The notes beneath the pieces were generated by a model. The model saw nothing but the letters and a program-made list of their open reading frames with translations. It made no database searches and was not told the origin of the DNA. 64,000 nt of DNA from Planomonospora sp. ID67723. Lineage in GTDB: Bacteria > Actinomycetota > Actinomycetes > Streptosporangiales > Streptosporangiaceae. Made by a program: the position numbers and the translations under genes. The stretch is taken from the NCBI RefSeq assembly GCF_015711605.1, contig NZ_JABTEZ010000004.1, forward strand, positions 248,001 to 312,000, written 5' to 3'. Shown here in pieces: positions 4,333-60,124 of this stretch (positions within the stretch are counted from its first letter, which is position 1; every line of letters begins with the position of its first letter).

Positions 4333-5585
4333 AATAACGATGGCAGCCTCAATGGATCAATGCATCACCCATGGATGATCATGTGGGCCATGGAGGTGTG
4401 TGTGCGGGACTACGGGTTCTCCCCTGCTCAGCAAGACGAGATCTGGCGGCGCTGGCGCAACGGGGAGTCGTTCAACGCGATGAGCCGCGCACTGGGCGCC
4501 CCCATGCATCACGTCCGGCGTTTTCTGGCGCAGAGCGGTGGCGTGCGCCAGGCACCGCAGCGACGTTGCGCACGGCACCTGACCGCCGTCGAACGCGAGG
4601 AGATCTCCCGGGGCATCGCCGCGGGGATGTCCGCCCGGCGGCTGGCCACGCGGCTGGGCAGGGCCTCCTCGACGATCTCCCGGGAGATCACCCGCAGGCG
4701 GCGGCCGTGAAAACTACCGGGCCGGTCCTGCCGACGCGCAGGCCTATGCGCGGGCACGGCGGCCGAAACCCGCCAAGCTGGCCCGGCATCCGGCACTGCG
4801 AGCGGCGGTGGAGGCGAAACTGGCCCTGTGCTGGTCGCCGGAGCAGATCTCCGGCTGGCTGCGCCGGCACCACCTGCACGACTCCGGCATGTGGATCTCA
4901 CACGAGGCGATCTACCTGTCGCTGTTCGATCCGCGCCGCCGCCGCGCGATCGACCGCACCCTGACCCAGCGGCTGCGCACCGCCCGCCCGATCCGCCAGC
5001 CGAAAGCGGCCCGCCGGCCCAGCGGCCGCGGCGTCCTGCGCGACATGGTCCCGCTCAGCGCCCGACCGGCCGAGGCCGACAACCGTACGGTGCCCGGTCA
5101 TTGGGAGGGGGACCTGGTGATGGGCAGCCGCCCGTCGGCCATCGCCACGCTGGTCGAGCGCACCAGCCGCTACACCTGCCTGGTCGCGCTGCCCGACGGT
5201 ATCAAGGCCGAGCAGGTCCGCCCCTATCTGAGCGGCAGCATCCTGGCCGTTCCGGAGCGGCTGCGGCGCTCGCTGACCTGGGACCGCGGCCGGGAGATGG
5301 CCGAGCGCCGCGCCTTCAGCGCCGCGACGGGCATGCCGGTCTACTTCTGCAAGCCGCGCAGCCCGTGGCAGCGGGGCACCAACGAGAACACCAACCGGCT
5401 GCTGCGCCAGTACCTGGCCAAGAACGCCGATCTGCGCGTCTTCACGCAAGCAGACCTGGATGCCATCGCGGCCGAGCTCAACGACCGCCCTCGGAAGATG
5501 CACGGCTACCGCAGCCCGGCGGAGGTCTACGCTGAGATCTTGAACAGCGGTGATGCGTTGATCCCCTGAGACCGCCATCGTTATT
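4333..5585 (+). mobile_element. IS30-family insertion sequence, complete ends, frameshifted transposase
   Basis: A 1,253-bp element. The left end (from 4333, AATAACGATGGCAGCCTC) and the right end (to 5585, read inverted as AATAACGATGGCGGTCTC) form imperfect terminal inverted repeats of about 37 bp that also share the block GGATCAA(T/C)GCATCACC. The single transposase is frameshifted. No clear target duplication flanks it. The right end abuts the 3' end of the DUF6578 gene, whose TAA stop lies within the IS. Relics of the same family occur at 770-1057 and 59975-60061. Confidence 0.9.
4375..5569 (+). pseudogene. IS30-family transposase with +1 frameshift
   Basis: Two open segments together make one IS30 transposase. 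The first runs from ATG 4375 to a TGA at about 4708 and carries the N-terminal helix-turn-helix (SARRLATRLGRASSTISREI). The second continues in another frame from about 4690 to 5569 and holds the DDE domain: WEGDLVMGS, then TWDRGREMAE, then SPWQRGTNENTNRL, the last containing the catalytic Glu. At 4685-4705 an extra base turns the expected R-N-G-G-R-E-N-Y reading into RRRRP-stop; the relic at 770-1057 keeps the uninterrupted reading at the same place. This is more likely mutation than programmed frameshifting. Confidence 0.88.
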
Positions 5586-12622: not shown

Positions 12623-13935
12623 GTGGTTGATTCCCACCCGCGCGGCCGGCAGCTGGCGGCCCGCCTGCGCGACCTGGTGCCCGGCGGCGCCCACGCCTAC
12701 AGCAAAGCCCCCTCCCAGTGGCCGGCGACGGCGCCGCCGCTGCTGGAACGCGGATCCGGCGCCTGGGTGTGGGATGTCGACGGCCACCGCTACATCGACT
12801 GGTTCGCCGGGCTGACGTGCGTCCCGCTCGGTCACGCCCACCCGGCCGTCACCGCGGCCGTGGCCGCCGCCCTGCGATCCGGTAGCGCCTTCCAGTTGCC
12901 GGCGGCCGCCGAGCTCGCCGCCGCCGAGACGTTCCTGGCCACCGTCGCGGTCGGCGACGACATGGTGAAGTTCGCCAAGAACGGCTCCGACGTCGTCGAT
13001 GCGGCCCTCAAGCTCGCCCGCTACGCCACCGGCCGGACGCTGGTCGCCAAATGCGCCGAGCATCCGTTCTTCTCCACCGGCGACTGGTTCATCGGCACCA
13101 CCGCCGCCCGCGGCGGCACGCTGCCCGAGGTCGCCGCCCGCACCCTCGACTTCCCCTACAACGACACTCCCGCGCTGCAGACGCTGTTCACCGAGCACGG
13201 TGACGACCTGGCTGCCGTCATCTTGGAACCGGTCCGCTTCACCCGCCCCGACACCGCCTGGTTCACGGCGCTGCGCGAGCGGTGTTCCCGCCACGGCACC
13301 GCCTTGATCTTCGATGAGACGGTGACCGGCCTGAAGTACCACCTGCACGGCGCCCGCACCCTCACCGGCGTCCACCCCGACTTGACCTGCTGGGGTAAAG
13401 GCATCGCCAACGGCCTGCCCGTCTCCGCGCTCACCGGCCGCCGCGAGCTGATGGAACTGGGCGATCCGGCCCGGTGTCCGCGCACGCCGCCGCTGCTGCT
13501 GCTGTCGACCACGCACGGGGGGAAGCCGCCGGCCTGGCCGCGATGGTCGCCACCGTCACCGAGATCGCCGCCACCGGTGCGATCGAGGCCGCCCACGCCA
13601 CCGGCGCTGCCTTGCGCACCGGCATAGACGACCTCGTGCGCCAGGCCGGGCTGGCCGAGCAGATCCGGCTGGTCGGATACGACTGCTTCCTCGGGATCGA
13701 AACCCGCGACACTACGGCCGTGTCCGCCGCGGAGCTCAAGACGCTGCTGCTGCAAGAACTCATCGCCGCCGGAGCGCTCGTGCGCGGCATCTTCTACCCG
13801 ACCGCCGCCCACGGGCAAGAGCACGTGGAGGCGACGTTGACGGTGGCGGAGATGGCGGCGAAAGTGTGCGGGCGGGCGCTGGAGGCCGGCTCCGGCGGGC
13901 TGTTGCGCGGACCGGCCGCACGCCGCCTGCTGTGA
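12623..13935 (+). pseudogene. Class III aminotransferase (glutamate-1-semialdehyde aminomutase-like), frameshifted
   Basis: The first part (GTG 12623, AGGAG upstream) reads as a PLP fold-type I enzyme: YIDWFAGLTCVPLGHAHPAV, MVKFAKNGSDVVDAALKLAR, IFDETVTGLKYH and DLTCWGKGIANGLPV with the Schiff-base Lys. At the G tract 13516-13521 the frame is lost; one more G would restore STTHGGEAAGLAAM, and the rest (TATGAIEAAHATGA to ALEAGSGGL) continues in the other frame to 13935. So this is one full-length gene with a 1-base deletion in a homopolymer, either a real mutation or a sequencing error. Function before loss: amination of a keto or aldehyde group in the same pathway as the SDR and kinase. Confidence 0.85.
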
Positions 13936-13946
13936 GGCCCGGCAGA

Positions 13947-14237
13947 CTAGGGCTGGACGGTGTCGTACTCGGCGCCGGGACCGTCGAGGAGTCCGGCCAG
14001 GCCGGATCGGTACCACGGCATGACCGTGCCGGCTTCCTCCAGCGTCATCCACCGGGTCTCGGTCACGTCGTCGTCGACGCCGCTGACGGCTGCCTCACCG
14101 GAGATGACGTGGGCGCGGAACACCACGAACAGGTCGTGGACCTGATCGGTGATCTGCTCGGTGACGCTCACGACCGGCCCGGTCTCCACGACCAGTCCGG
14201 TCTCCTCTTTGGTTTCGCGTACGGCGGTCGCGCTCAG
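13947..14237 (-). pseudogene. NUDIX hydrolase, C-terminal half
   Basis: The reverse strand reads LSATAVRETKEETGLVVETG, the second half of a NUDIX box (R-E-x-x-E-E-x-G), followed by a normal NUDIX C-terminus ending PWYRSGLAGLLDG. The first half of the box is missing; a matching N-terminal half lies at 24905-25057 on the same strand. Joining the halves at the repeated CTGAG restores G-x5-E-x7-R-E-x2-E-E-x-G exactly. The break coincides with the end of the 14238-24904 unit. Originally a single NUDIX hydrolase downstream of the exonuclease/ATPase genes. Confidence 0.88.
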
Positions 14238-14968
14238 AGCCTGACGCTGTCGGGGATCTTGGTTGAGCGCGGATCAGTCGGTTGAGCGCCAGGAGCGAGG
14301 GCGCGGGATGTGTTGCCAGTCGAGGAAGCCTTGGAGGGCAGTCGGGGGGCGGAGTTGAGGTGCGATGGCGGGCGGGAGCTGCGCGCAGATGCGTTCGATG
14401 TTGATGGCGATCGCGGTGAGGACGTGTTGGACGTGGGTTTTGTCCTGGCTGCGGTAGCGGCTTCGGCGCATGCCATGTCCTTGGACGAACTCGTTGATGG
14501 TGCTCTCGATGCCAGCGCGTCGGGTGTAGCGGGTCCACCAGTCCCGGGTCTGCTGTTCGGCTCGTGCTCGGGTCTGGAGCTTGTGGAGTTCCCGCGGGTA
14601 GAACGTCAGCTGGCGGGCGTCGGTTCGGGTGCACTGGGCCTTGACCGGGCAGGCGCCGCAGTCGTTCTGGAGGAACTTCACCCTGGTCAAGGGCGCGATC
14701 GAGGGGGGAGTCGCCCATTGGGAACTCTCTTTGCCCTGCGGGCAAATGACCTTCTCTCGGTCCCAGTCGATGGTGAAGGCGTCGGGCGGGAACACGTTCC
14801 CCTTGCGTGATTGGCGGGTGCGCTTGGCCCGTATCGGGCCAAGAAGCTCGATCTGGTGCAGGCGGGCCACGTTGTCGCGGATGGCGACGGAGGTGTAGCC
14901 GCCGTCGACCAGGTGCTCGGCGGGCAGAAGGGCCCGCTCGGCGAGGCGGGCCTGGACGATCGGGAGCG
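14238..14968 (-). mobile_element. Truncated IS1182-type element (3' part)
   Basis: Contains the last 231 residues or so of an IS1182-like transposase: LPAEHLVDGGYTSVAIRDN (DDE-type Asp), the Cys-rich region LQNDCGACPVKAQCTRTDA, and RAGIESTINEFVQGHGMRR with the catalytic Glu, then 36 bp to the terminal repeat at 14238. The transposase N-terminus and the other end are missing from this copy; at 14968 the sequence switches to an oxidoreductase gene. Confidence 0.85.
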
Positions 14969-15359
14969 CCCGGATGTCGTGGCCGAACCAGGGGTAGACC
15001 GGGCCGGTGTTGCCGCGGCCCAGCATCAGGTCGATGCGGCCGTCGGCCAGGTGCTGCAGCATCGCGTAGTCCTCGGCGATCTTCACCGGATCGTTGGTGG
15101 TGATCAGCGTGGTCGCGGTGGACAGGATCAGGCGCTCGGTCCGTGCGGCGATGTAGCCCAGCATGGTGGTCGGGGACGACGGCACGAAGGGCGGGTTGTG
15201 GTGCTCACCGGTCGCGAAGACGTCGAGACCGACCTCCTCGGCCTTGAGCGCGATGGCGACCATCGCCTTGATCCGCTCGTGCTCGGTCGGCGTCCTTCCC
15301 GTGGTGGGGTTCATGGTGACGTCGCCCACGGGGAAGATTCCGAACTGCATCGTGCTCAC
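14274..15359 (-). CDS. In-frame chimera: LLM-class flavin oxidoreductase N-terminus fused to IS1182 transposase C-terminus
   Basis: A 361-residue open frame made of two unrelated parts. Residues 1-130 (GTG 15359, GCGGGACG upstream) are the N-terminus of a luciferase-like flavin monooxygenase: VGLDVFATGEHHNPPFVPSS and LMLGRGNTGPVYPWFGHDIR. From residue 131 it is the IS1182-type transposase. The oxidoreductase lacks the C-terminal part of its barrel, and the transposase lacks its start, so neither activity is expected. The reading frame stays open across the junction at about 14969, so a fusion protein could be made. An AT-rich stretch (TTTAAAATTCAAC) before the start looks like a promoter or operator. 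Confidence 0.8.
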   Translation of the reverse strand: MSTMQFGIFPVGDVTMNPTTGRTPTEHERIKAMVAIALKAEEVGLDVFATGEHHNPPFVPSSPTTMLGYIAARTERLILSTATTLITTNDPVKIAEDYAMLQHLADGRIDLMLGRGNTGPVYPWFGHDIRALPIVQARLAERALLPAEHLVDGGYTSVAIRDNVARLHQIELLGPIRAKRTRQSRKGNVFPPDAFTIDWDREKVICPQGKESSQWATPPSIAPLTRVKFLQNDCGACPVKAQCTRTDARQLTFYPRELHKLQTRARAEQQTRDWWTRYTRRAGIESTINEFVQGHGMRRSRYRSQDKTHVQHVLTAIAINIERICAQLPPAIAPQLRPPTALQGFLDWQHIPRPRSWRSTD

Positions 15360-15456
15360 CGTCCCGCTGCCGTTTAAAATTCAACTATTTAAGCATCGCG
15401 GCAGACGATCCTATTTCCGGCCGGACCCCGGTGACCGGGCGGAGCGGTGCCGGGCC

Positions 15457-15705
15457 TCAGGCCGGGGGCCGCTCCTGGGCGGTGCGGCCGATCTGCAACT
15501 CGTCGAGGAGGTCCTGGGTCGCGGCGGCGACGGCCTCCACGGCCCGCTCGAAGGCGGCGGCGTTGCGCGCGGACGGGGCGCGGAAGCCGGAGATCTTGCG
15601 GACGTACTGCAGCGCGGCGGCCCGCACGTCCTGCTCGGTCACGTCACTGGAGTAGGGCTCGCGAAGGGTTTTGATGCTTCGGCACATGTCGAGACCGTAC
15701 GACAT
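15457..15705 (-). CDS. DUF2277 family small protein
   Basis: A small protein matching DUF2277: MCRSIKTLREPYSSDVTEQD, then VRAAALQYVRKISGFRAPSA and AFERAVEAVAAATQDLLDEL. This conserved actinobacterial family has no known function. Many members begin at MCRSIK (ATG 15687), but the in-frame ATG at 15705 has AGGGAG just upstream, so the longer form of 82 residues is given. It lies between the oxidoreductase chimera and a divergent membrane protein gene. It is a housekeeping-type gene carried within the 14.2-24.9 kb unit. Confidence 0.85.
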   Translation of the reverse strand: MSYGLDMCRSIKTLREPYSSDVTEQDVRAAALQYVRKISGFRAPSARNAAAFERAVEAVAAATQDLLDELQIGRTAQERPPA

Positions 15706-15779
15706 CGGCTCCCTGGCCGGGGGGCGCCCCTGCCGTCATAATCCTGGGAACGGATTCCTGCGCACGGCGGGAGGTGTTC

Positions 15780-16034
15780 ATGGACTCCTCGGACGGCCGG
15801 GTCCTGGTCCTCATCGTGGTCGCGACGGTGGTGTTCTTCATCGGACGGCGCTATCAGCGGACGGTGGACGCCTGGGGAGGCCGGGGCAAGGCGATCAAGA
15901 CCGCGGCGGACGCGAAGGACAGGATCCCCGCCGCCAAGGCGGCGGCGTGGGCGGCGATCCGCGGCATGGTCGGGGCCGGGCTGGTGGCGTTGATCCTGTT
16001 CGCCATCGTCGCCAACGCGATCCGGTACGGCTGA
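15780..16034 (+). CDS. Small membrane protein
   Basis: An 84-residue protein with an N-terminal transmembrane helix (VLVLIVVATVVFFIGRRYQR), a charged middle (AIKTAADAKDRIPAAKAAAW) and a second helix near the C-terminus (GAGLVALILFAIVANAIRYG). ATG 15780 was chosen because GGGAGG lies 5 nt upstream; an in-frame GTG is at 15774. No known family recognised. It is divergent from DUF2277 and convergent with the KAS III-like gene. Confidence 0.7.
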   Translation: MDSSDGRVLVLIVVATVVFFIGRRYQRTVDAWGGRGKAIKTAADAKDRIPAAKAAAWAAIRGMVGAGLVALILFAIVANAIRYG

Positions 16035-16099
16035 GCCCCCGCCGCACCGCGGCATGGGCGCCGGGCCGTGAGGACCGGGTGGCGCAGCGGCGCAGTGGC

Positions 16100-17164
16100 T
16101 CAGCCGGCCGGGGCCCACCCGGCGGGCTCGACGATTTCCACGACCACGCAGGACAGGGCGATGCCGACGCCGTTGCCGAGCAGCAGCACGTGGTCCCCCG
16201 GCCCGACGGCTCCGGTCTCGACGAGATGGGTGAGTCCCGCGATCTGGTCGTTCACCCCGAGGTGACCGACGCCGCGCCCGAACTCCAGCACGCCCCGGGC
16301 GGGGTCGATGCCCAGGGGTTCCAGCACGCTCCTGACGTAGGCCTCGCCGCCGGAGAAGACGTGCGTGGCGCGGGCCACGTCCCGCGGGCCGATCCCGGCC
16401 TCGGCGAGAGCGCGCCGCGCCACCTCGACGCGCGCCAGCGTCAGCCGTTCCCTGGCCCGGTCGAACTCCGCGGGACGGCGGGCGGCGAACTCGGCGATCC
16501 GCGCCCCGATCGCCATGGGGCGGCCCACCGTGCATCCGGGCGGGAACAGCGGCATGTCCCCCCGGTACATCTCCTCCATGTCCGGGAGCGAGGCGGAGGC
16601 GACCGCCCGCAGCCGGGCGAACCCGCCGCGTCGCGACAGCACGACGGCCGTGCCGGCGTCACCGAAGATCGTGCCGCGGTTGGTGACCGCCCCCTCGGCG
16701 TAGCGCCAGCGGTCGACGAGCGGCGCGCCGAAGTTGTCCGCCCCGGTGATGAGGGCGGCGGTACGGTCCCCGCCGCCCGCGGTCAGGTAGCACGCGGCCA
16801 GCTCCATCGCGCCGAGCATCCCGTTGCAGGTCTGACGGATCTCGAAGGCGGGGACGTGGCCGCCGATGGTGTGGCGCTGCACGTAGTGGTGCGGCGACCA
16901 GCCGTCGGGACCCTGGTGGTAGAAGGTCGCGTGAAGGAGCAGGCCGACCTCGGAGGCGTCGTGGCCCGAGCGGGCCAGCGCCTGGTTGCCGGCGCGCACG
17001 GCCATGTCCGGTGCCGGCGTCCGGCCGGCCACCGCGGCGCCGGACCATCCGGCGCGCATGTGCTCCTCACGGTCGTACATGCCGAGCTCCACGGCCCTCG
17101 CCGCACTGAACGACTCGGGGATGTATGCGCCGAGCCCGGCGATGTGGATGCCGTCCACCTTCAT
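16100..17164 (-). CDS. 3-oxoacyl-ACP synthase III-like condensing enzyme
   Basis: A 354-residue thiolase-fold enzyme of the FabH/KAS III type, which joins an acyl-CoA starter with a malonyl or ketoacyl unit. Nucleophile Cys113 lies in EIRQTCNGMLGAMELAACYL, as in FabH. The later FGRGVGHLGVNDQIAGLTHL and LLGNGVGIALSCVVVEI supply a His and an Asn for the catalytic triad. ATG 17164 has GAGG 8 nt upstream. The gene is divergent from the AfsA-like operon and shares its upstream region, so joint regulation is likely. It could make the beta-ketoacyl precursor that AfsA-type enzymes use, or offload an acyl group; neither is proven. Confidence 0.9.
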   Translation of the reverse strand: MKVDGIHIAGLGAYIPESFSAARAVELGMYDREEHMRAGWSGAAVAGRTPAPDMAVRAGNQALARSGHDASEVGLLLHATFYHQGPDGWSPHHYVQRHTIGGHVPAFEIRQTCNGMLGAMELAACYLTAGGGDRTAALITGADNFGAPLVDRWRYAEGAVTNRGTIFGDAGTAVVLSRRGGFARLRAVASASLPDMEEMYRGDMPLFPPGCTVGRPMAIGARIAEFAARRPAEFDRARERLTLARVEVARRALAEAGIGPRDVARATHVFSGGEAYVRSVLEPLGIDPARGVLEFGRGVGHLGVNDQIAGLTHLVETGAVGPGDHVLLLGNGVGIALSCVVVEIVEPAGWAPAG

Positions 17165-17527
17165 TTTTCGACCTCGCTTACCGAGCGGTGTCCGGTGATC
17201 CGTACCGGTTTCGGGCGACGCGTGGAAATGCACCGCCCCTCCTGTGCGACGCGGCCCGAATCCTGGACCCGCGGACGCCGGACGCACATCTTCTGGAATG
17301 CGGTACCGGCGGCGCCGGTGGACACCGGGTCCGTGAGCAGCTCCGGGTCCGTTAACGCCGGGCCGTATCCGCGATTGACAGAGGACTGAAAACGCCGGCT
17401 TTTTCCTGTCCGGATCGCCTTCCGCATAGAGCCTGATCAGAGGGGACGCCGTCCGCTGGCGAATATTCCGACAGTCGTTTCGGGATCGATCCATAACACC
17501 GAAATATGGAGGAGAGCAATACGGGAG
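17165..17527. promoter_or_regulatory. Divergent control region between KAS III-like and AfsA-like genes
   Basis: 363 bp with no convincing gene. It separates two divergent biosynthetic genes and must hold both promoters. Its right half is AT-richer than the surroundings (GAATATTCCGACAG at 17461 and CCATAACACCGAAATATGGA at 17491, the latter ending in an AGGAGAG ribosome-site-like run). I see no operator that I can name. Confidence 0.5.
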
Positions 17528-18523
17528 ATGCTCGGTGATCATGCCGGTAACAGGATTCATGAATCTTTCCCGAAACGGGGGTTGGAACCTGTGACACTTC
17601 TGACCGCATCCGAGGCCCACCACGGAGTCCTGCCGCAGGAGCGGCCGGCCGACGGTCTGCTCCGGGACCTCGATCTGGTGACCGGAACCTGGTCCGCGAC
17701 GCTCGCCGTGGACTCCGGCGATCCCTACTTCTTCGACCATCCTCTCGATCACCTGCCCGGTATGGCCCTCGTCTGCGGTCTGCTGGACCTGTTGCGCGCC
17801 ACCGGCACCGGGCACCCCGAGCGGCCGGGGCACCGCATGCTCATGTCGCTGGATCTGTCGACGTTCTGCGAGCAGGAGGTGCCGGTCCACCTCGAAGCGA
17901 TCCGGCTCCCTCCCGACGACACCGGCGGACTGCCCGGCGGGCTCTCCGGCACGACGCGGGTGGTCATGAGCGCCCGCCAGCGCGGCCAGGTCGTCTGCGA
18001 GGGAGAGGCCGCCTTCCGCCCGGCGGCGCCCTTCGAGGCGCCCGGCGTCCCCGCCGCGGCCCGCCACCCCGAACCGGCCCGCCCGGAACTGGTCCACCGG
18101 CACCGTCCGGAGAACGTCCTGATCGGCGGCATGGTGCCGTACGGCACGACGCGGATCGCGGAGATACGCCGGCCGCCGGACGGCCACCCGCTCGCCCCGG
18201 CGCCGGGCGCGCCGCCCCGCGCGGAGCTGATCATCGACGCGGCCCGGCAGTTCGGCACCATGATCTGCCACGTCGAGCACGCCGTGCCGCAGGACGCCCG
18301 GTTGATCCTGCTGGCCATCGAGGCCGACCTGCCGTGCGAGCTCCCCCGGGACCTGCGGCTCGGGTGGACGCGGACCGCCCCGCGACGTGGACGCTCCCGC
18401 ATGCACATCGAAGTCGTCGCCGGCGACCCCGGCACCGAGCCGTGCGGCTCCGTCACGCTCGACTACTACGCCGCCTCGCCGGCGATCTACCGCAGGCTGC
18501 GCCACGCGGGAAGGACGGCATGA
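17528..18523 (+). CDS. AfsA-like hotdog protein (gamma-butyrolactone biosynthesis type)
   Basis: AfsA/ScbA enzymes join a beta-ketoacyl chain to dihydroxyacetone phosphate to make gamma-butyrolactone signals. Two hotdog repeats are visible. The first has DPYFFDHPLDHLPGMALVCG, the AfsA signature F-D-H-P-x-D-H-x-P-G. The second has LVHRHRPENVLIGGMVP, then AARQFGTMICHVEHAVPQDA. Length (about 310-331 residues) fits. The start is uncertain: ATG 17528 with AGGAGAG upstream, or GTG 17591. It heads an operon of overlapping genes (ATGA junction with the next). No ArpA/TetR-type receptor gene is adjacent, so a biosynthetic rather than regulatory role is possible. Confidence 0.85.
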   Translation: MLGDHAGNRIHESFPKRGLEPVTLLTASEAHHGVLPQERPADGLLRDLDLVTGTWSATLAVDSGDPYFFDHPLDHLPGMALVCGLLDLLRATGTGHPERPGHRMLMSLDLSTFCEQEVPVHLEAIRLPPDDTGGLPGGLSGTTRVVMSARQRGQVVCEGEAAFRPAAPFEAPGVPAAARHPEPARPELVHRHRPENVLIGGMVPYGTTRIAEIRRPPDGHPLAPAPGAPPRAELIIDAARQFGTMICHVEHAVPQDARLILLAIEADLPCELPRDLRLGWTRTAPRRGRSRMHIEVVAGDPGTEPCGSVTLDYYAASPAIYRRLRHAGRTA

Positions 18524-19173
18524 GCGCCGCGAGGTCCGCGGGCCTGGTGACCCTGTTGACCCGGGTGCTGTTCGTCGCCGCCGTCACCGCGATGGCGGTG
18601 CGCGCCGCCGGGTACCTGACCCACGCCGCCGAGGGCGCGAACCTCGTCTCCGGACTCCTCGTCACCGGCTACCTGGCCTGGGTGAGCATCGAGATCCCGG
18701 TCACCTTCCGTAAACCGTCGCAGCCCGTCGCCGAGAGCCGCACCCTTGCCGCGTACGCCTCCTCGCGGATGCTGCTGGTGCTCGCGGCCGTGGTGCCGCC
18801 GGCTCCCTGGAACGAGGTCTCCTATCTGATGGCGCCGGCGATCGCCCTGTTCCTGGCGGGCATCGTGCTGCGCACGGTCGCGATCAGGGCGCTGGGCGCG
18901 CTCTACACCCATCACGTCCTGCGCCGCGAGGAGCACCCGCTGGTCACCACCGGCCCGTACCGGTTCCTGCGGCACCCGGCCTACGCCGGCATGCTCCTGG
19001 CCAACACCGGCTTCGTCCTCTACTTCCACCAGGCGTACGGCGTCGCGGCGCTGCTGGTGCTGGCCGGAGTCCTGGTCTGGCGGATCCGCACCGAGGAGCG
19101 GGTGCTGTGGTCGGTTCCCGGATACCCGCAGTTCGCCGCCGGGCGCGCGCGCCTGCTCATGGGGGTGTGGTGA
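18520..19173 (+). CDS. Isoprenylcysteine carboxyl methyltransferase-like membrane methyltransferase
   Basis: A 217-residue integral membrane protein of the ICMT/PEMT family, which methylates lipids or prenylated substrates with SAM. It has about five hydrophobic segments. The conserved C-terminal SAM-binding stretch is LVTTGPYRFLRHPAYAGMLL, followed by FHQAYGVAALLVLAGVLVWR and RTEERVLWSVPGYPQFAA, where R-x-x-x-E-E is typical. ATG 18520 overlaps the AfsA stop, and the TGA overlaps the next start. With a UbiA prenyltransferase in the same operon, a prenylated small molecule is a reasonable substrate. Confidence 0.86.
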   Translation: MSAARSAGLVTLLTRVLFVAAVTAMAVRAAGYLTHAAEGANLVSGLLVTGYLAWVSIEIPVTFRKPSQPVAESRTLAAYASSRMLLVLAAVVPPAPWNEVSYLMAPAIALFLAGIVLRTVAIRALGALYTHHVLRREEHPLVTTGPYRFLRHPAYAGMLLANTGFVLYFHQAYGVAALLVLAGVLVWRIRTEERVLWSVPGYPQFAAGRARLLMGVW

Positions 19174-21875
19174 TGACCGCGCTGATCCGGGCCGGTGACG
19201 CCCGGCTCACCGACGCGACCGTGACCGGGCACAAGTTCGCCCGTCAGGAGCTGCTGCGCCGGGCCGGTTTCCAGGTGCCCGAGTTCTTCTGTGTTCCGGT
19301 CACCGTGTTCGACGCCGTGGCCCGCGACCTGCTGCCCCCCGCGCCGGACCCCGGGCGCGAGGCCGAGCTGACGGCCTGGGCGGCGGACGCGGCGGCCCGG
19401 CTGTCGTCCGCCGTGCCACCGGGCCGGCTGGAGGCCGAGCTGCGCGAGGAGGCCGCGGCCCTCGCCGGGGACCACGGCCTGCTCGCGGTACGGGCCTGCG
19501 TGGTGGCCGACGCCGAGGGAGTCGGCGAGGACGGCGTCAGCGACGCGTTCGCCGGGATGACCGAGTCCTACCTGTACGTGCGTCCCGAGGACGTACCAGG
19601 GCGGGTCGTGCAGTGCTGGGCCTCGGGATTTACCCCGGAGTCGATCCTGTACCGGGTACGCAGGGGACTGTCGGTCGGCTCGGTCCGGGTGGCGGTCGGA
19701 GTCCAGGTGATGGTCCCCGGGACGCGGTCGTTCGTGGCGTTCAGCCGCGACCCCCGCACGGGCGAGGCCGCCTGTGTGATCGCGGCGGCGCACGGCATCG
19801 GTGAGGGCGTCGTCCAGGAACGCGCCGACGTCGACCACTTCTTCGTGGACACGGCCTCCGGCCGGATCCGGTCCGAGGTTGTCGTCAAACGGGTGATGAT
19901 GACCCGGGGTGACGGGGACGAGGGGCCGGTGCCGCGTCCGGTGCCCGCCGAGCAGGCCGGGCAGCCCGTGCTCACCGACGGTGAGGTGCGCCGGGTGAGT
20001 GATCTCGCGGCGGAGGTCGAGGACTTCTTCGGGCTGCCGCAGGACATGGAGGGCACGATCACGCCCGACGGCGCCATCCACCTGGTGCAGGCCCGCCCCG
20101 TGGTGTTCGCCGGCGGTCCGGAGGAACCGGCGGTGCGCTGGAGCAACCACAACATCACCGAGAGCTTCCCGGGCCTTTCCGGCGCGTTGACGTACTCGCA
20201 GGCACGCGTCTTCTACCGGTCGATCTTCCGCGACCTCTACCGGCGGATGGGAGTGCCCGACCGCCGGCTCCGGGCGCTGGAGCACCACCTCAACCGCATG
20301 GTGGGGCTGGTCGACGGCCGCATCTACTACCGGTTGGACGCCTGGCTCGCTCTGCACGGGCAGATCCCCGGCTTCCCGCTGGTCCGCCGGTGGTGGGAGC
20401 GCTCGATGGGGATCGACGGCGACCATCGCCCCTCCCGGCCGGAGGTGCTCCGCGCGCTGCCCTCCGTGCCGCGTCTCCTCGCACGGCTGCTGCGACAGCC
20501 CCGGGAGACCGGGGACTTCCTGCGCTGGTGGGACCGCCTGGTCGACCAGAGCGCGGGGATGGACGAGTGGACGCCCGATCGCCTCATCGCCTTCTACCGG
20601 CGGCTGTGGGCCGAGGTGGGCCGGCGATGGGGCGTCACCCTCGTCAACAGCTTCTTCCTCCTGGTGTGGACCACGCTGACCTCGGCGGCGCTGCGCCGCT
20701 GGGTCACCGACGACGAGCAGCGGCTGCTCGGCGGCCTGCTGACGGGCGGGCGGGAGAACCGGTCGCTGCTCGGGGTGCGGTCCGCAATCGCGCTCGCGGA
20801 GCTGGTCGGCGGGCACCCTGAACTGGCCGGACGGATCCGGCGCTGTGGCGGGGAGGGCGACTCCGCCGACGAGATCTGGGTCGACGTCGTCGCGGGCCGC
20901 TACGGAGCGGAGATCGCCCGGGCCGCCGCCACCCACCTGCGCCGGTACGGCGATCGGGCCCTGCACGACCTGAAGCTGGAGGAGCCCTCGCCCCGCCAGC
21001 GGCCCGGCATGATCATCGAAATGGTCAAACCCATGGTCCACGGCGGCCTGACCGTGGCGGGCAGCCGCGCCAAGGAGCTCGCCGCCCGTGCCGAGGCGGA
21101 GCGGGAACTGCGCGGGCGTTGCCGCGGCACCGTCCGCCTCCTGACGATCCGCGCCCTCGTCGCTGGGCTGCGCCGGGCGGTCAAGACCCGCGAGGACACC
21201 CGGTACTGCCGCAGCCAGCTGTTCGGGTTGACCCGTCAGGTGATGTGGCGCCTCGGGGACCTGCTCGCCGAGGCGGGCAGGCTCGACCGCGGCCGGGATG
21301 TCGTGGACCTCACCGTCGAGGAGGTGCTCGGCGCCTACGACGGCACGCTGGTGGACGCCGACCTGCGCTCCCTCGTCCGCGCCCGCCGCGAGGAGCGGCG
21401 CGCGGCGCAGGGACGTCCGGACCCCGGCGTCGAGCTGGCCATGCCGCTCAACCGCCCCATGCCGCTCAACCGCCCCATGCCGGGCGGCCCGGCCGGTGCG
21501 CCTCCCGACCCGCCCGCTCCGGAGCCCGCCACGGTGGCCGGCGACCTGCGGGGACTGCCGTCCAGCAACGGCGTGGTGCGCGGCGAGGCTCGCGTCGTCC
21601 TCGACCCATCCATATCCCCCGAATCATGCCGTGACCGGATTATCGTGGCGAAGGAGACCGACCCCGGATGGTTGTTCCTCATGATGGCGGCGCGCGGAAT
21701 GGTGGTGGAACGGGGCACGCTACTGTCCCACACCGCGATCACCGGACGACTGCTCGGCATCCCGACCGTCGTCTCCGTGCCCCGGGCGACCACGCTGATC
21801 AAGGACGGGGCCCTCGTCGAGGTCGACGGGGCCGAGGGGAGGGTGCGCGTCCTGAGCGCCGCGGAGACCTCCTGA
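19173..21875 (+). CDS. PEP-synthase-type dikinase, rifampicin-phosphotransferase-like architecture
   Basis: A 900-residue three-part protein. Residues 1-320 are a PEP/pyruvate-binding ATP-grasp domain: HKFARQELLRRAGFQVPEF, then GVSDAFAGMTESYLYVR and HGIGEGVVQERADVDHFFVD. The middle (about 330-760) is the divergent helical region seen in rifampicin phosphotransferases. A Pro-rich linker with a duplicated MPLNRP follows, then the swivelling His domain with VERGTLLSHTAITGRLLGIP (catalytic His near 853). Such enzymes use ATP to phosphorylate pyruvate or a small-molecule hydroxyl. It overlaps both neighbours by a few bases. Within this operon it more likely modifies the product or an intermediate than central metabolites. 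Confidence 0.88.
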   Translation: MTALIRAGDARLTDATVTGHKFARQELLRRAGFQVPEFFCVPVTVFDAVARDLLPPAPDPGREAELTAWAADAAARLSSAVPPGRLEAELREEAAALAGDHGLLAVRACVVADAEGVGEDGVSDAFAGMTESYLYVRPEDVPGRVVQCWASGFTPESILYRVRRGLSVGSVRVAVGVQVMVPGTRSFVAFSRDPRTGEAACVIAAAHGIGEGVVQERADVDHFFVDTASGRIRSEVVVKRVMMTRGDGDEGPVPRPVPAEQAGQPVLTDGEVRRVSDLAAEVEDFFGLPQDMEGTITPDGAIHLVQARPVVFAGGPEEPAVRWSNHNITESFPGLSGALTYSQARVFYRSIFRDLYRRMGVPDRRLRALEHHLNRMVGLVDGRIYYRLDAWLALHGQIPGFPLVRRWWERSMGIDGDHRPSRPEVLRALPSVPRLLARLLRQPRETGDFLRWWDRLVDQSAGMDEWTPDRLIAFYRRLWAEVGRRWGVTLVNSFFLLVWTTLTSAALRRWVTDDEQRLLGGLLTGGRENRSLLGVRSAIALAELVGGHPELAGRIRRCGGEGDSADEIWVDVVAGRYGAEIARAAATHLRRYGDRALHDLKLEEPSPRQRPGMIIEMVKPMVHGGLTVAGSRAKELAARAEAERELRGRCRGTVRLLTIRALVAGLRRAVKTREDTRYCRSQLFGLTRQVMWRLGDLLAEAGRLDRGRDVVDLTVEEVLGAYDGTLVDADLRSLVRARREERRAAQGRPDPGVELAMPLNRPMPLNRPMPGGPAGAPPDPPAPEPATVAGDLRGLPSSNGVVRGEARVVLDPSISPESCRDRIIVAKETDPGWLFLMMAARGMVVERGTLLSHTAITGRLLGIPTVVSVPRATTLIKDGALVEVDGAEGRVRVLSAAETS

Positions 21876-22783
21876 CGACCCGTCTGCTCCGCTACGTCGC
21901 CGGCAGCTACCCGCCCAAGGTGTACCTCCCCTACGCGCTGGCGTGGGCGATCGGCGCGCCGGCCGCCTGCGCGCTGGTCGACCCCCGGATCTCCGGATGG
22001 CTGCCGGACGCGGGGACCGCGGTGAGCGCCGTGACCCTCGTCGTCGTCCTGCTGATGATGCGGGCCCTGGACGACATCCGGGACCTGGACTACGACCGGG
22101 AGCACAACCCGGACCGGCCGCTCGCCAGAGGCGTCGTCCGCGTCCGCGACCTGACCGTCATGGTCGCCGCCGGGACCGTGCTCGTGCTCGCGCTCAACGC
22201 GTGGCGCTGGCCGGTCATGTGCGTGCTGGCGGGTCAGCTCGCGTACGCGTACCTGGTGCTGTGGGCCGACCGCCGGCTCGGGTGGCCGCGCGGCGACGCG
22301 CTCGTGGCGGGCTTCCTGGTGAACCTCCCCGTCCAGCTCATGATCAACGCCTTCCTGTACGCCGGGCTGCTGCACTCGGCCGGGCTCGCCCCGGTCTGGC
22401 CGGGCGCGATCGGGATCGCCGTGGCCGCCCTGGCGTTCCTGCACGTGGAGTTCGCCCGCAAGACGACCCGGCGGCCCCGCCCGGGCGAGCGCACCTACGT
22501 CACCCTGTTCGGCACGGCGGGAACCGCCGCACTGGCCCTGGCCTGCGCGCTGGCCTCGGTCGCGGTCCTGATCGCCTCGACCACCGCCGGAGGCGGCGAG
22601 CGCACCGGGACCTGGGCGGTGTGGCTGGCGGCGGCACCGCTGGCCTTCGCGGGGCTCGGCGCGCTGCGGTTCCGGCGCGAGGACCTCGCCCGCTGGCCCT
22701 ACGGGCAGGCGGCGCTGTTCATGCTCGTCAGCTTCGCCGGCTATCAGATCATCAACCTCGTGGAGAGGGCGACGGCGCCATGA
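21872..22783 (+). CDS. UbiA-family prenyltransferase (possible CTG start)
   Basis: A membrane prenyltransferase of about 303 residues. The first Asp-rich motif is MRALDDIRDLDYDREHNPDR (D-D-x-x-D-x-x-x-D), followed by PLARGVVRVRDL. Eight or so hydrophobic segments follow. The second motif region reads VEFARKTTRRPRPGERTYVT, lacking the usual Asp pair, as in some UbiA subgroups. There is no ATG or GTG near the conserved start LLRYVAGSYPPKVYLPYA; the best candidate is CTG 21872, which has GGAG 7 nt upstream and overlaps the preceding stop. GTG 21920 would cut conserved residues. It transfers an isoprenyl chain to an unknown acceptor. Confidence 0.85.
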   Translation: MTTRLLRYVAGSYPPKVYLPYALAWAIGAPAACALVDPRISGWLPDAGTAVSAVTLVVVLLMMRALDDIRDLDYDREHNPDRPLARGVVRVRDLTVMVAAGTVLVLALNAWRWPVMCVLAGQLAYAYLVLWADRRLGWPRGDALVAGFLVNLPVQLMINAFLYAGLLHSAGLAPVWPGAIGIAVAALAFLHVEFARKTTRRPRPGERTYVTLFGTAGTAALALACALASVAVLIASTTAGGGERTGTWAVWLAAAPLAFAGLGALRFRREDLARWPYGQAALFMLVSFAGYQIINLVERATAP

Positions 22784-23979
22784 CCGACCTCCAGCTCTTC
22801 CCCTTTCCCGCCGGGACCAGGGGTGAGCCGCCGGCCGAATACGCCCGGATCCGGCAGGAACCCGGCCTGCCCCGGGTACGGCTCAGCAACGGCCGCCAGG
22901 CGCTGGTCGTCACGCGGTACCACGACGTCAGGCTCGTGCTGTCGGACAGCAGGTTCAGCCGCTCGGCGTTCACCAGCACCCCGCTGTTCGCGCGCACGAC
23001 GGAGTCGCTCGCGTTGAACACGGCCGACGCGCCCGAGCACGGCCGCCGGCGGGGAGCCGTCGCACACGCCTTCACCGCCCGCCAGGTGCGGCGGATGCGG
23101 CCGATGGTCGAACGGGTGATCGAGGAGCAGATCGCCGAGGTCGCGGCCGGCCCGCGCCCGGCCGATCTGGTCGACCGGTTCACCGTGCCGTTCACGCTGC
23201 GGGTCATGTGCCGGATCCTCGGCGTGCCGGAGGATGACATCGGGCGGTTCAAGCCGTGGGTGGATCCCATGATGTCCGTGGGCCGTTTCCCCGCCGACAC
23301 CGTGGCCCGGTGCCACCGGGAGATGAACGACTACTTCACCGCGCTCGTGGAGGATGTGCGGGCGGCGCTCGACGCGGGCCGTACGGTGCCCGGCCTCATC
23401 GCCGAGATGCTCACCCCGCGCAAGGAGGAGCGCCGGCTCAGCCGGGCCGAGGTGATCACGATGTCCGCCGGGATCCTCATCGCCGGATACGAGACCACCA
23501 GCAACGAACTGGCGGCGGCGGTGTACGAGATGTTGCGCCGCCCCGAGCTGGTGCGGCGCGTGCGCGACCGTCCGGAGGAGAGCGGGCCGGTGGTCGAGGA
23601 GATACTGCGATACCTGTGCGCGAACGGCAGCGGCGGTGTGCCGCACGTGGCGACCGCCGACGTCACGCTCCCCGGCGGGGTCGTGGTACCGGCCGGGGAG
23701 GTGGTGGTCCCGATCCCGGACGCCGCCAACCACGATCCCGGCGTCTTCGAGGACCCCCGGTGCCTGCGGGGCGATCGGGCGGAGAACCCGCACCTGACCT
23801 TCGGATTCGGGGCGCACTACTGCCTGGGGGCGGAGCTGGCCCGGCTGGAGATGCGCCTGGGCCTGACGGCCGTGTTCGGCGCCTTCCCGACACTGCGCCT
23901 GGCCGTGCCCGAGGAGGAGCTCCGCTGGCGGACCGACATGTTCATCCGCGGGCTGTGGGAACTGCCGGTCACCTGGTGA
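22780..23979 (+). CDS. Cytochrome P450
   Basis: A 399-residue soluble bacterial P450. The I-helix oxygen-binding motif is AGILIAGYETTSNELAAAVY. The E-x-x-R is in VVEEILRYLCAN. The haem-binding loop is LTFGFGAHYCLGAELARLEM, with the Cys ligand. ATG 22780 overlaps the UbiA stop. No ferredoxin gene is adjacent, so electrons must come from elsewhere. It probably hydroxylates or epoxidises the pathway intermediate. All signature residues are intact. Confidence 0.96.
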   Translation: MTDLQLFPFPAGTRGEPPAEYARIRQEPGLPRVRLSNGRQALVVTRYHDVRLVLSDSRFSRSAFTSTPLFARTTESLALNTADAPEHGRRRGAVAHAFTARQVRRMRPMVERVIEEQIAEVAAGPRPADLVDRFTVPFTLRVMCRILGVPEDDIGRFKPWVDPMMSVGRFPADTVARCHREMNDYFTALVEDVRAALDAGRTVPGLIAEMLTPRKEERRLSRAEVITMSAGILIAGYETTSNELAAAVYEMLRRPELVRRVRDRPEESGPVVEEILRYLCANGSGGVPHVATADVTLPGGVVVPAGEVVVPIPDAANHDPGVFEDPRCLRGDRAENPHLTFGFGAHYCLGAELARLEMRLGLTAVFGAFPTLRLAVPEEELRWRTDMFIRGLWELPVTW

Positions 23980-24001
23980 CCGGGGAGGAGGGAGGTTCCG
24001 C

Positions 24002-24703
24002 ATGAACGGCGCGAACGCCCCGCACGGCCCGGCGGAGAACGGGCTGACGCCCGACGGGCTGCTGACGACCACCCGCTCGGTGCGCAGGCGGCTCGACCTG
24101 AACCGGCCGGTGCCCGTGGCGCTGGTCGAGGAATGCCTGCGGATCGCCCAGCAGGCGCCCTGCGGCTCGGGCCGCAACACCGGGCACTGGATCGTCGTCA
24201 CCGACCCTGCGATCAGGGCGGCGATCGGCGAGTCGTACCGGGCGGCGTTCGACCGCTACGCGCCCCCGGCCTCCCCGGAGCCGTCCGGGGAGACGGCGGG
24301 CCCCGGGCCGGGCCGTGCCGGTGGACAGGACGCCTGGGCGGCGAGCCGGCGGCGCTCGCTCGACAGCGCCGGCCATCTCGCCCGGCACCTCGGCGAGGTC
24401 CCCGTCCTGGTCATGGCCTGCCTGGATTCCGGCGGCCCGTTGCCCGGCGGCAGCCAGGCCGGGCTGTGGGGGTCCCTGATGCCCTCGGTGTGGAGCTACA
24501 TGCTCGCCGCCCGGGCGCGCGGACTCGGGACCGCGTGGACCACCGCCCACCTGGCGTACGAACGGGAGATCGCCGAGTTGCTGGGGATCCCGCCCGGGGT
24601 CCACCAGGGGGCGCTCATACCGACGGCGTACCACCTCGGCGACACCTTCCGTCCGGCGGCCCGGCCCCCACTGCGGGAGGTGCTGCACCACGACCGCTGG
24701 TGA
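24002..24703 (+). CDS. Nitroreductase-family flavin oxidoreductase
   Basis: A 233-residue FMN enzyme of the nitroreductase fold: LLTTTRSVRRRLDLNRPVPV (Arg pair binding the FMN phosphate), CLRIAQQAPCGSGRNTGHWI, and a C-terminal GLGTAWTTAHLAYEREIAEL followed by LGIPPGVHQGALIPTAYHLG. It starts at ATG 24002 after a strong GGAGGAGGGAGG. It is last in the operon, 22 bp after the P450. Relatives reduce quinones, enones or nitro groups; here it is a likely tailoring step. The operon ends about 120 bp before the unit's right end. Confidence 0.9.
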   Translation: MNGANAPHGPAENGLTPDGLLTTTRSVRRRLDLNRPVPVALVEECLRIAQQAPCGSGRNTGHWIVVTDPAIRAAIGESYRAAFDRYAPPASPEPSGETAGPGPGRAGGQDAWAASRRRSLDSAGHLARHLGEVPVLVMACLDSGGPLPGGSQAGLWGSLMPSVWSYMLAARARGLGTAWTTAHLAYEREIAELLGIPPGVHQGALIPTAYHLGDTFRPAARPPLREVLHHDRW

Positions 24704-24821
24704 CGGCCGCGGCGCACCGGACAGCAGTTCCAGAGATGCCTCGCACCACCCGGGGCGTGAAGAATTTTGGCCGTAACTCTTCGTCGGCGCCCGCGATCGT
24801 GCGCCTGGAAGGAGTCGAAGT

Positions 24822-24904
24822 GCCCGACGCTGTCGGGGATCTTGAAGAGCTGGTGATCATCTGGTTGAACGTCAGCCCTTCAAGATCCCCGACAGCGTCG
24901 GGCT
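24822..24904. repeat. Mini-IS/MITE with 26-bp perfect inverted arms; right end of the 10.7-kb unit
   Basis: GCCCGACGCTGTCGGGGATC continuing to 24847 recurs exactly inverted at 24878-24903, with a 30-bp loop. Each arm is a copy of the IS1182-type terminal repeat found at 14238. It looks like an IS with its whole interior deleted. The CTCAG duplication lies on its right only, so its outer arm is also the end of the large unit. Confidence 0.85.
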
Positions 24905-25057
24905 CTCAGGGTCTCGCCTTCCTCGCGGCGACCTCCGGGCAGGCTCCACGAGTCACGATTACGCACCGCCAGTACGCGCCGGGTGGGTCTCATCCAGAAC
25001 CAGCGCGTAGGCCACGTCGATCCGTTGAAGAGGCATGTTCGCCAGCCGCTCACTCAT
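24905..25057 (-). pseudogene. NUDIX hydrolase, N-terminal half
   Basis: It starts at ATG 25057 (MSERLANMPLQRIDVAYALV) and, after a 1-base frameshift at about 24985, continues VLAVRNRDSWSLPGGRREEG followed by E-T-L, the front half of a NUDIX box, up to the inserted unit at 24904. The C-terminal half is at 13947-14237. The frameshift lies outside the insertion, so the gene carries two separate lesions. Position and strand place it downstream of the exonuclease and P-loop ATPase genes. Confidence 0.82.
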
Positions 25058-59974: not shown

Positions 59975-60061
59975 ACAAACGACGGCGGTCTCAAAGGATC
60001 AACGCATCACCGCTGTTCAAGATCTCAGCGTAGACCTCCGCCGGGGTGCGGTAGCCGTGGA
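59975..60061 (-). mobile_element. IS30 right-end relic
   Basis: CGGCGGTCTCAAAGGATCAA at 59983, then CGCATCACCGCTGTTCAAGA, closely matches the right 85 bp of the complete IS30 (5500-5585, inverted), including the last codons of the transposase. Everything else of that copy is gone. The sequence beyond 60061 is unrelated. Confidence 0.85.
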
Positions 60062-60124
60062 GCTACCGCTCCGGAACCGCTGGTACGCCGCCAGTCGTTC
60101 CTCCATCGTGGATTCCGTGGCGAA

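Follow-up and report, generated by a model that had tools for sequence, protein, structure and literature searches.

A biosynthetic cluster between two IS1182-type derivatives in a split NUDIX gene of Planomonospora sp. ID67723: a probable compound-like transposon

The unit, its ends and the split NUDIX gene

The stretch of DNA analysed here (the window) comprises 64,000 bases of Planomonospora sp. ID67723, bases 248001-312000 of contig C4 in a genome of 8.34 Mb on nine contigs. Within it, a unit of 10,667 bp (14238-24904) that holds a biosynthetic cluster with an AfsA-domain gene is set off by paired outer ends and separates the two halves of a NUDIX gene. The outer left end (14238-14261), which is the 3' end of an IS1182-type element, reads AGCCTGACGCTGTCGGGGATCTTG and the outer right end (24881-24904) reads AGCCCGACGCTGTCGGGGATCTTG on the minus strand, an inverted match in which one of 24 positions differs. 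Both carry the core GACGCTGTCGGGGATCTTG, in agreement with the core of intact IS1182 elements. The pentamer CTCAG, read directly from the sequence, abuts the unit on the outer side of each end (14233-14237 on the left and 24905-24909 on the right). When inverted 24-mer pairs with at most one mismatch were sought, first-order Markov shuffles of the window gave none (0/20). The real window gave the outer pair and a pair inside the right end, and the same test also picked the repeat pairs 777-1003/4362-4726 and 5501-5542/59995-60036. Direct reading and the shuffle test thus bear out an earlier note, made on the letters of this DNA, which had described inverted ends matching at 23 of 24 positions with CTCAG outside both.

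On the minus strand, 25057-24905 forms the front and 14237-13947, which includes the left CTCAG, the back of one NUDIX gene, as seen from translation and from alignment to the intact NUDIX gene of a relative, G191. When the flanks are joined with a single CTCAG the NUDIX box is restored, and the joined protein aligns to that of G191 (Pfam NUDIX, 8.3e-20) at 55% identity with no gap at the join. The G191 gene adjoins the same aminotransferase and neighbours, with DNA 67-76% identical over five pieces, and G191 is absent from the 16 genomes with a match to the AfsA protein of the unit. Some NUDIX match at E <= 0.001 was found in 200/200 family genomes, and besides the own genome only G191 was prominent (4.5e-35; next best 1.7e-15). 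Two of 79 genomes, again the own genome and G191, passed 1e-15. Among 394 genomes drawn from the class, a draw for which the inclusion of G191 was not established, the own genome was the one to pass 1e-20 and G191 did not appear. Within the genus the search covered two genomes, the own and G001. The latter has no long stretch that matches the 1,081 bp on the left side of the unit and is therefore unusable as an empty site. The view of the earlier note that the flanks are two halves of one gene, an intact form of which might be met in relatives, is upheld by the joined alignment, with G191 as the sole intact case. The front half (24905-25057) contains a frameshift, following ...DVAYALVLDETHPAR, which the note had passed over, and is therefore no open frame. 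A frameshift is expected of a dead gene, and it suggests that the insertion is not fresh.

The bounding elements and their relatives

The left end of the unit is more than the insertion sequence (IS) end that had been described there. Directly inside it lies an open reading frame (ORF; 14274-15359, minus) that is a chimera, with residues 4-129 luciferase-like and residues 205-325 a DDE transposase domain (DDE_Tnp_1_6, 95.6 bits). The C-terminal part of an IS1182-type DDE transposase (14274-14970, minus; Pfam DDE_Tnp_1_6, 3.5e-27), its N-terminal part missing, is joined in frame to the N-terminal part of a gene for a luciferase-like monooxygenase (14971-15350, minus; Pfam Bac_luciferase, profile 1-120 of 314), with the border between them uncertain by about 10 bp. 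The remnant shows 66.8% identity to a transposase annotated as IS1182 family. On a Streptomyces IS1182 transposase of 561 aa it covers residues 322-553, and its frame ends in RSWRSTD*. Similarity to a luciferase paralog of the own genome (C2:1935 kb) starts at 14971. The chimera and these homology borders indicate that the 3' end of the left IS survived and that its 5' part disappeared along with the remainder of the luciferase gene. At the inner junction, CACGACA is common to the window and an IS1182 transposase gene, and GACA is also found in the luciferase paralog.

On the right, the earlier note had likewise seen a simple end. This end is present, and it belongs to a whole miniature inverted-repeat element of 84 bp (24821-24904), composed of the IS1182-type outer end and the last ~50 bp of an IS1182 element, that is, the last transposase codons and the 3' end. 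The element is a nearly perfect hairpin (z -11.79, 200 shuffles) and contains a third, inward-facing copy of the end (24821-24844) at the limit of the cargo; identity to the Planobispora genomes described below stops inside this copy, at 24826. Its inner part is, on the minus strand, an IS1182 3' end that matches the own genome at C4:459326 over 46/53 bases. The transposase frame there ends in RSWRSTR*, as against RSWRSTD* in the left IS. The surrounding C4:459261-459379 is an IS1182 remnant, again last transposase codons and 3' end, and is probably related to the IS from which the right element arose. To judge from its sequence, the right element appears to be an IS with an internal deletion, from an IS1182 member that is related to, but not the same as, that on the left. 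It has the same orientation as the left element. Of the features that define a miniature inverted-repeat transposable element (50-500 bp, two inverted ends, no gene, origin by internal deletion of an IS, several copies per genome), it has the size, the ends, the lack of a gene and the internal deletion, and it is present in one copy in the own genome. Partial relatives of 83 bp (72.9%) occur in two Streptomyces plasmid records (L118:1501-1583, L119:1501-1583), both behind a quinone oxidoreductase gene.

Relatives of the transposase were found in 160 plasmid records and in 62/250 family genomes including the own, and IS1182 relatives share the end core GACNCTGTCGGGRATCTT. A 17-bp part of the end occurs in 5/341 family genomes, again including the own, with one site in each of the other four. 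We examined 21 loci for ends paired 1.5-3.2 kb apart, and 13 were paired, representing 12 distinct insertions (L105 and L106 are the same). Five of the 13 have an exact 5-bp repeat of the form NTNAG (TTAAG, CTAAG twice, CTCAG and ATGAG), two have a 4-bp repeat (TTAG, CTAG) and six have none. The CTCAG of the unit fits the NTNAG form, which supports an insertion. With regard to membership in the IS1182 group, the unit has a DDE transposase of this type, in its C-terminal part, as well as the terminal inverted repeats of the group and the target repeat of the subgroup. Insertion by replacement of a hairpin, reported for IS1272 only, does not describe this site, where the repeats are direct and 5 bp long and the NUDIX gene aligns to that of G191 without loss.

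The IS1182 elements of two Streptomyces plasmids (NZ_CP109160.1, NZ_CP108865.1) have the same end core and transposases 66.8% and 55.0% identical over the remnant; unlike the unit, they are single IS elements. L105, L106 and L107 have the bases GCCT before the core in common with the window. Their IS1182 copies carry an extra ORF between the transposase and the right end that the left end of the window lacks. In the elements at L105:1680-4402 and L107:1672-4321 this extra ORF lies on the opposite strand, and that of L105 has no Pfam match at 0.01.

The cargo and its counterparts in Planobispora

The cargo begins on the left with a DUF2277 gene (15457-15705, minus; Pfam 2.6e-27), followed by a small protein gene (15780-16034, plus) that was read from the sequence and lies within the block common to Planobispora siamensis. 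Next is a beta-ketoacyl-ACP synthase III (KAS III)-like gene (16100-17164, minus), assigned by Pfam domains, its NCBIfam matches all being below cut-offs. Genes on the plus strand then comprise the AfsA-domain gene (17528-18523; Pfam 6.1e-18), an ORF whose aa 170-258 form an ICMT-type methyltransferase domain and which probably begins later than its first possible start (18334-19173), a PEP-synthase-like dikinase with PPDK_N and PEP-utilizers domains (19107-21875), an ORF with a UbiA-like prenyltransferase (21668-22783; 28.9 bits, below the Pfam cut-off of 34.2), an ORF with a cytochrome P450 in its second half (21943-23979) and a nitroreductase-family gene (24002-24703). Against the NCBIfam ScbA/BarX equivalog the AfsA protein scores 85.6 bits, below the cut-off of 200, and so is not assigned as a gamma-butyrolactone synthase. 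None of the seven cluster proteins scanned reaches an NCBIfam cut-off.

The AfsA protein has matches in 16/200 family genomes including the own, and close ones in four others, at 86% in two Planobispora species and at 64-66% in G171 and G196. A scan of named genomes, confined to close relatives, also returned the two Planobispora species. These are P. siamensis NBRC 107568 (G087) and P. takensis NBRC 109077 (G111), of the same family as the window genome. In G171 and G196, the part common to the window spans the KAS III gene to the nitroreductase gene, indicating that the unit holds the whole conserved set of a divergent KAS III gene and six co-oriented genes.

Window positions 15157-24826 align to P. 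siamensis over 9.7 kb at 92.9%. In 500-bp windows the cargo is 93.5% identical (n=19), compared with 87.5% in 94 windows from four syntenic regions (Mann-Whitney p 3e-8), a baseline that takes only pieces aligned over at least 400 bp; 6/94 baseline windows reach the median of the block. P. siamensis and P. takensis are 92.5% identical to each other in one region. The same 9.7-kb block lies in a different context in two Planobispora species, as would be looked for at another locus if the unit had been inserted. A comparison of the window with bases 9.7-40 kb of the P. siamensis contig at E <= 1e-5 gave no match except a 265-bp second copy of a cargo piece. From these identities the cargo was most likely acquired horizontally from a Planobispora-like genome; we infer both the transfer and its direction.

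Past the limit of the cargo, Planobispora and a resident module of the own genome both run on into GTGCCCGTCACC, the start of a chorismatase gene. In Planobispora, the chorismatase is of the FkbO/Hyg5 type (361.6 bits, cut-off 325) and is followed by a ligase nearest BagE/FevW (557 bits, below the cut-off of 800) and then by a PLP decarboxylase. At the right inner junction, TGCCCG is common to the IS end and the native Planobispora sequence, so that short homology, and not a clean insertion, may have produced this junction. The left side cannot be compared, because both Planobispora contigs end within the luciferase gene, at points equivalent to 15157 and 15172 in the window. The breaks (L060:1, L061:1, G087:C58 end, G111:C46 start) fall at nearly the same residue in two luciferase-like paralogs, and this suggests a repeat common to them. 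In P. siamensis, a 265-bp stretch around the start of the DUF2277 gene is also repeated directly about 13.2 kb apart (L060:495-760 and 13701-13965), enclosing the cluster and the chorismatase module; P. takensis lacks the 4.4 kb that follow.

The resident module (C4:732389-736437; L145:6389-10437) shares a contig with the unit, at a distance of 463 kb. It consists of an FkbO/Hyg5-type chorismatase (106.7 bits, above cut-off) with a ligase and a PLP decarboxylase recognised by DNA homology to Planobispora. It matches the Planobispora module over 4.1 kb at 87.7%, and at 88.4% in windows, like the genomic baseline (p 0.40). No counterpart of the Planobispora module was found in the two 20-kb cluster stretches of G171 and G196; G171 has a chorismatase elsewhere (C1:5906084) and G196 has none. 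With the cluster of G171 and G196 free of an adjoining chorismatase module, we do not conclude that one Planobispora pathway was split and that the cluster of the window is its first half.

Two further inverted repeats lie outside the unit. One of 91 bp (92%) has its arms 54 kb apart (5492-5582 and 59978-60068), and both arms resemble by eye the 3' ends of IS transposase genes. In the other (763-1047 and 4341-4763), arms of 225 bp (92%) and 65 bp (89%) are separated by 3.3-3.9 kb, and the reading frames there appear HTH-like on inspection by eye.

Insertion, alternatives and comparison with known systems

We propose that the unit is a compound-like transposon with two different IS1182-family derivatives as borders, which moved a horizontally acquired cluster into the NUDIX gene, and we put the probability of this reading at roughly 0.78. 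On the left would be an IS reduced to its 3' end and the C-terminal part of its transposase, and on the right a related IS that internal deletion had shortened to 84 bp. The outermost ends, namely the 3' end of the left element and the 5' end of the right one, would have been acted on by a transposase of the IS1182 group that came either from an intact relative or from the left IS while this was still whole. Everything between them would then have inserted at CTCAG in the NUDIX gene, duplicating 5 bp and moving the whole block in a single event. Insertion, as the earlier note had also proposed, is supported by the form of the target repeat in relatives, by the intact NUDIX ortholog in G191 and by the presence of the same block in another context in Planobispora. 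Consistent with a composite transposon, there is an IS derivative on each side, the outermost ends were used and one target repeat is seen. Two copies of the same IS are not present, nor was a second location of the unit found. We use the term compound-like because the bounding elements have different 3' ends and so are not two copies of one IS. When the own genome was searched for the transposase remnant, one further match, a remnant of 27 residues, came up and no active IS of this kind. A search with the end sequence found there, beyond the three end copies of the unit, one site with two mismatches (C2:1682244), which we took for chance on reading its sequence. On these grounds the unit is probably immobile now.

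Several observations weigh against this proposal. Neither a second copy of the whole unit nor one of the complete left IS was found. The GAC core lies 3 bases from the repeat in repeat-bearing reference elements and 5 bases from it in the window, and the closest relatives by transposase, L105/L106 and L107, have no exact repeat. In the parts of the reports available to us, ISPse1, an IS1182 element of Paracoccus, has a 4-bp repeat (PMC3281130) and IS1272 has no target repeat (PMC4923244, PMC5678879), so that the IS1182 family is heterogeneous in this respect. Neither inner junction resembles clean transposition, and the inner borders could derive from illegitimate deletions. The empty site would be represented by one distant relative, G191, at 55% protein identity. 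As to the transfer, the four baseline regions were picked by synteny and not randomly, and rpoB is 96.3% identical between the window genome and G045, a genome of the same genus as the Planobispora genomes that stood in for them because the rpoB model had no match in G087, G111 or G132. rpoB is a slow gene, so it is the four-region baseline that carries the claim of transfer.

The outer ends and the target repeat would be equally expected if a single IS1182 element had hit the NUDIX gene first, creating the CTCAG repeat, and the cluster had entered this IS later by homologous or illegitimate recombination, with loss of the IS middle. The internally broken left IS and the short shared sequence at both inner junctions agree with such a sequence of events, which the earlier note had offered as its alternative. 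However, the right element does not supply the 5' half that the left IS lacks, since it has a second 3' end, whose relative ends in WRSTR* where the left IS ends in WRSTD*. One IS and one entry would also give two ends and not three, and the cargo stops right at the inner end of the miniature element. What stands of this alternative is the internal breakage of the left IS; the whole miniature element on the right and the different IS1182 origins of the two borders weaken it, and we regard it as unlikely. That the inverted repeats and CTCAG are chance or unrelated, the NUDIX halves being two separate genes, is barely credible. It could draw on the lack of an open frame in the front half, but the shuffles gave no comparable pair, the ends are of a known IS1182 type and the joined halves align gap-free at the join to an intact gene. 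If the orthology of the G191 gene is accepted, its intact state refutes the two-gene reading.

A move within the genome, in which the cluster would have left the resident module at C4:732389-736437 and jumped into the NUDIX gene, has in its favour that the homologous chorismatase, ligase and decarboxylase module (87.7% at the DNA level) directly follows the block in Planobispora. It is contradicted by a non-coding stretch of 113 columns present in all three places, in which the window is 92.9% identical to Planobispora and 75.2% to the resident module, and Planobispora and the resident module are 74.3% identical. The window being closest to Planobispora, its block is not a piece that departed from the resident module. 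The baseline-like 88.4% identity of that module to Planobispora and the absence of such a module beside the clusters of G171 and G196 also argue against the move. We rejected relocation from C4:735 kb on this three-way comparison and hold it to be highly improbable.

A more tentative extension of the compound-like transposon is that transposition from outside brought the AfsA cluster into a genome that already had its own diverged chorismatase, ligase and decarboxylase module 463 kb away, rejoining two modules that are adjacent in Planobispora. We consider this doubtful. If it were true, actinomycete pathways could be severed at operon borders and put together again across genera by way of IS1182 ends and their miniature derivatives.

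That biosynthetic clusters have passed between actinomycetes is as a rule deduced from their patchy distribution. At this locus, the target repeat can be seen side by side with the broken recipient gene, an empty site in a distant relative, the cargo limit and a related lineage in which identity is raised. The locus suggests that a single unit can have an IS1182 remnant at one end and a miniature element of 84 bp at the other, and that so small an element can mark the border of a mobile cluster.

Among the matches listed in a search of the open-licence literature, there was no report of an IS1182-bounded biosynthetic unit in actinomycetes. The unit combines features of known systems and adds no new principle. 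The nearest parallel found is TnSha1, in which, according to the accessible parts of the reports, IS1272 (IS1182 family) and an additional end move fabI, three IS ends being described (PMC4923244, PMC5678879). As in the unit, an IS1182-family element and an extra end-like repeat mobilise an adjacent metabolic gene. As described in the same parts, TnSha1 targets hairpins, deletes part of the stem and leaves no target repeat, whereas the unit has a 5-bp repeat; it is 3,022 bp long with one IS1272 and one gene, compared with 10.7 kb here, where a broken IS and a miniature element accompany about ten genes or gene parts. Tnces is, from the excerpts at hand, a composite transposon of two IS6-family copies around the cereulide cluster (PMC4057527) and so resembles the unit in enclosing a biosynthetic cluster. 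Its two IS copies are full, its repeat is 8 bp long and a marked derivative was moved experimentally, whereas the unit has two unlike defective elements and is known from sequence. TIME-COMPs, as far as the available text of their description goes, are composite-like units with miniature elements as borders (PMC13367494) and share with the unit the use of miniature elements as ends of a mobile unit. They are Tn3-derived and have two copies of one element, in contrast to the one miniature element and one IS1182-type remnant that border the unit described here.

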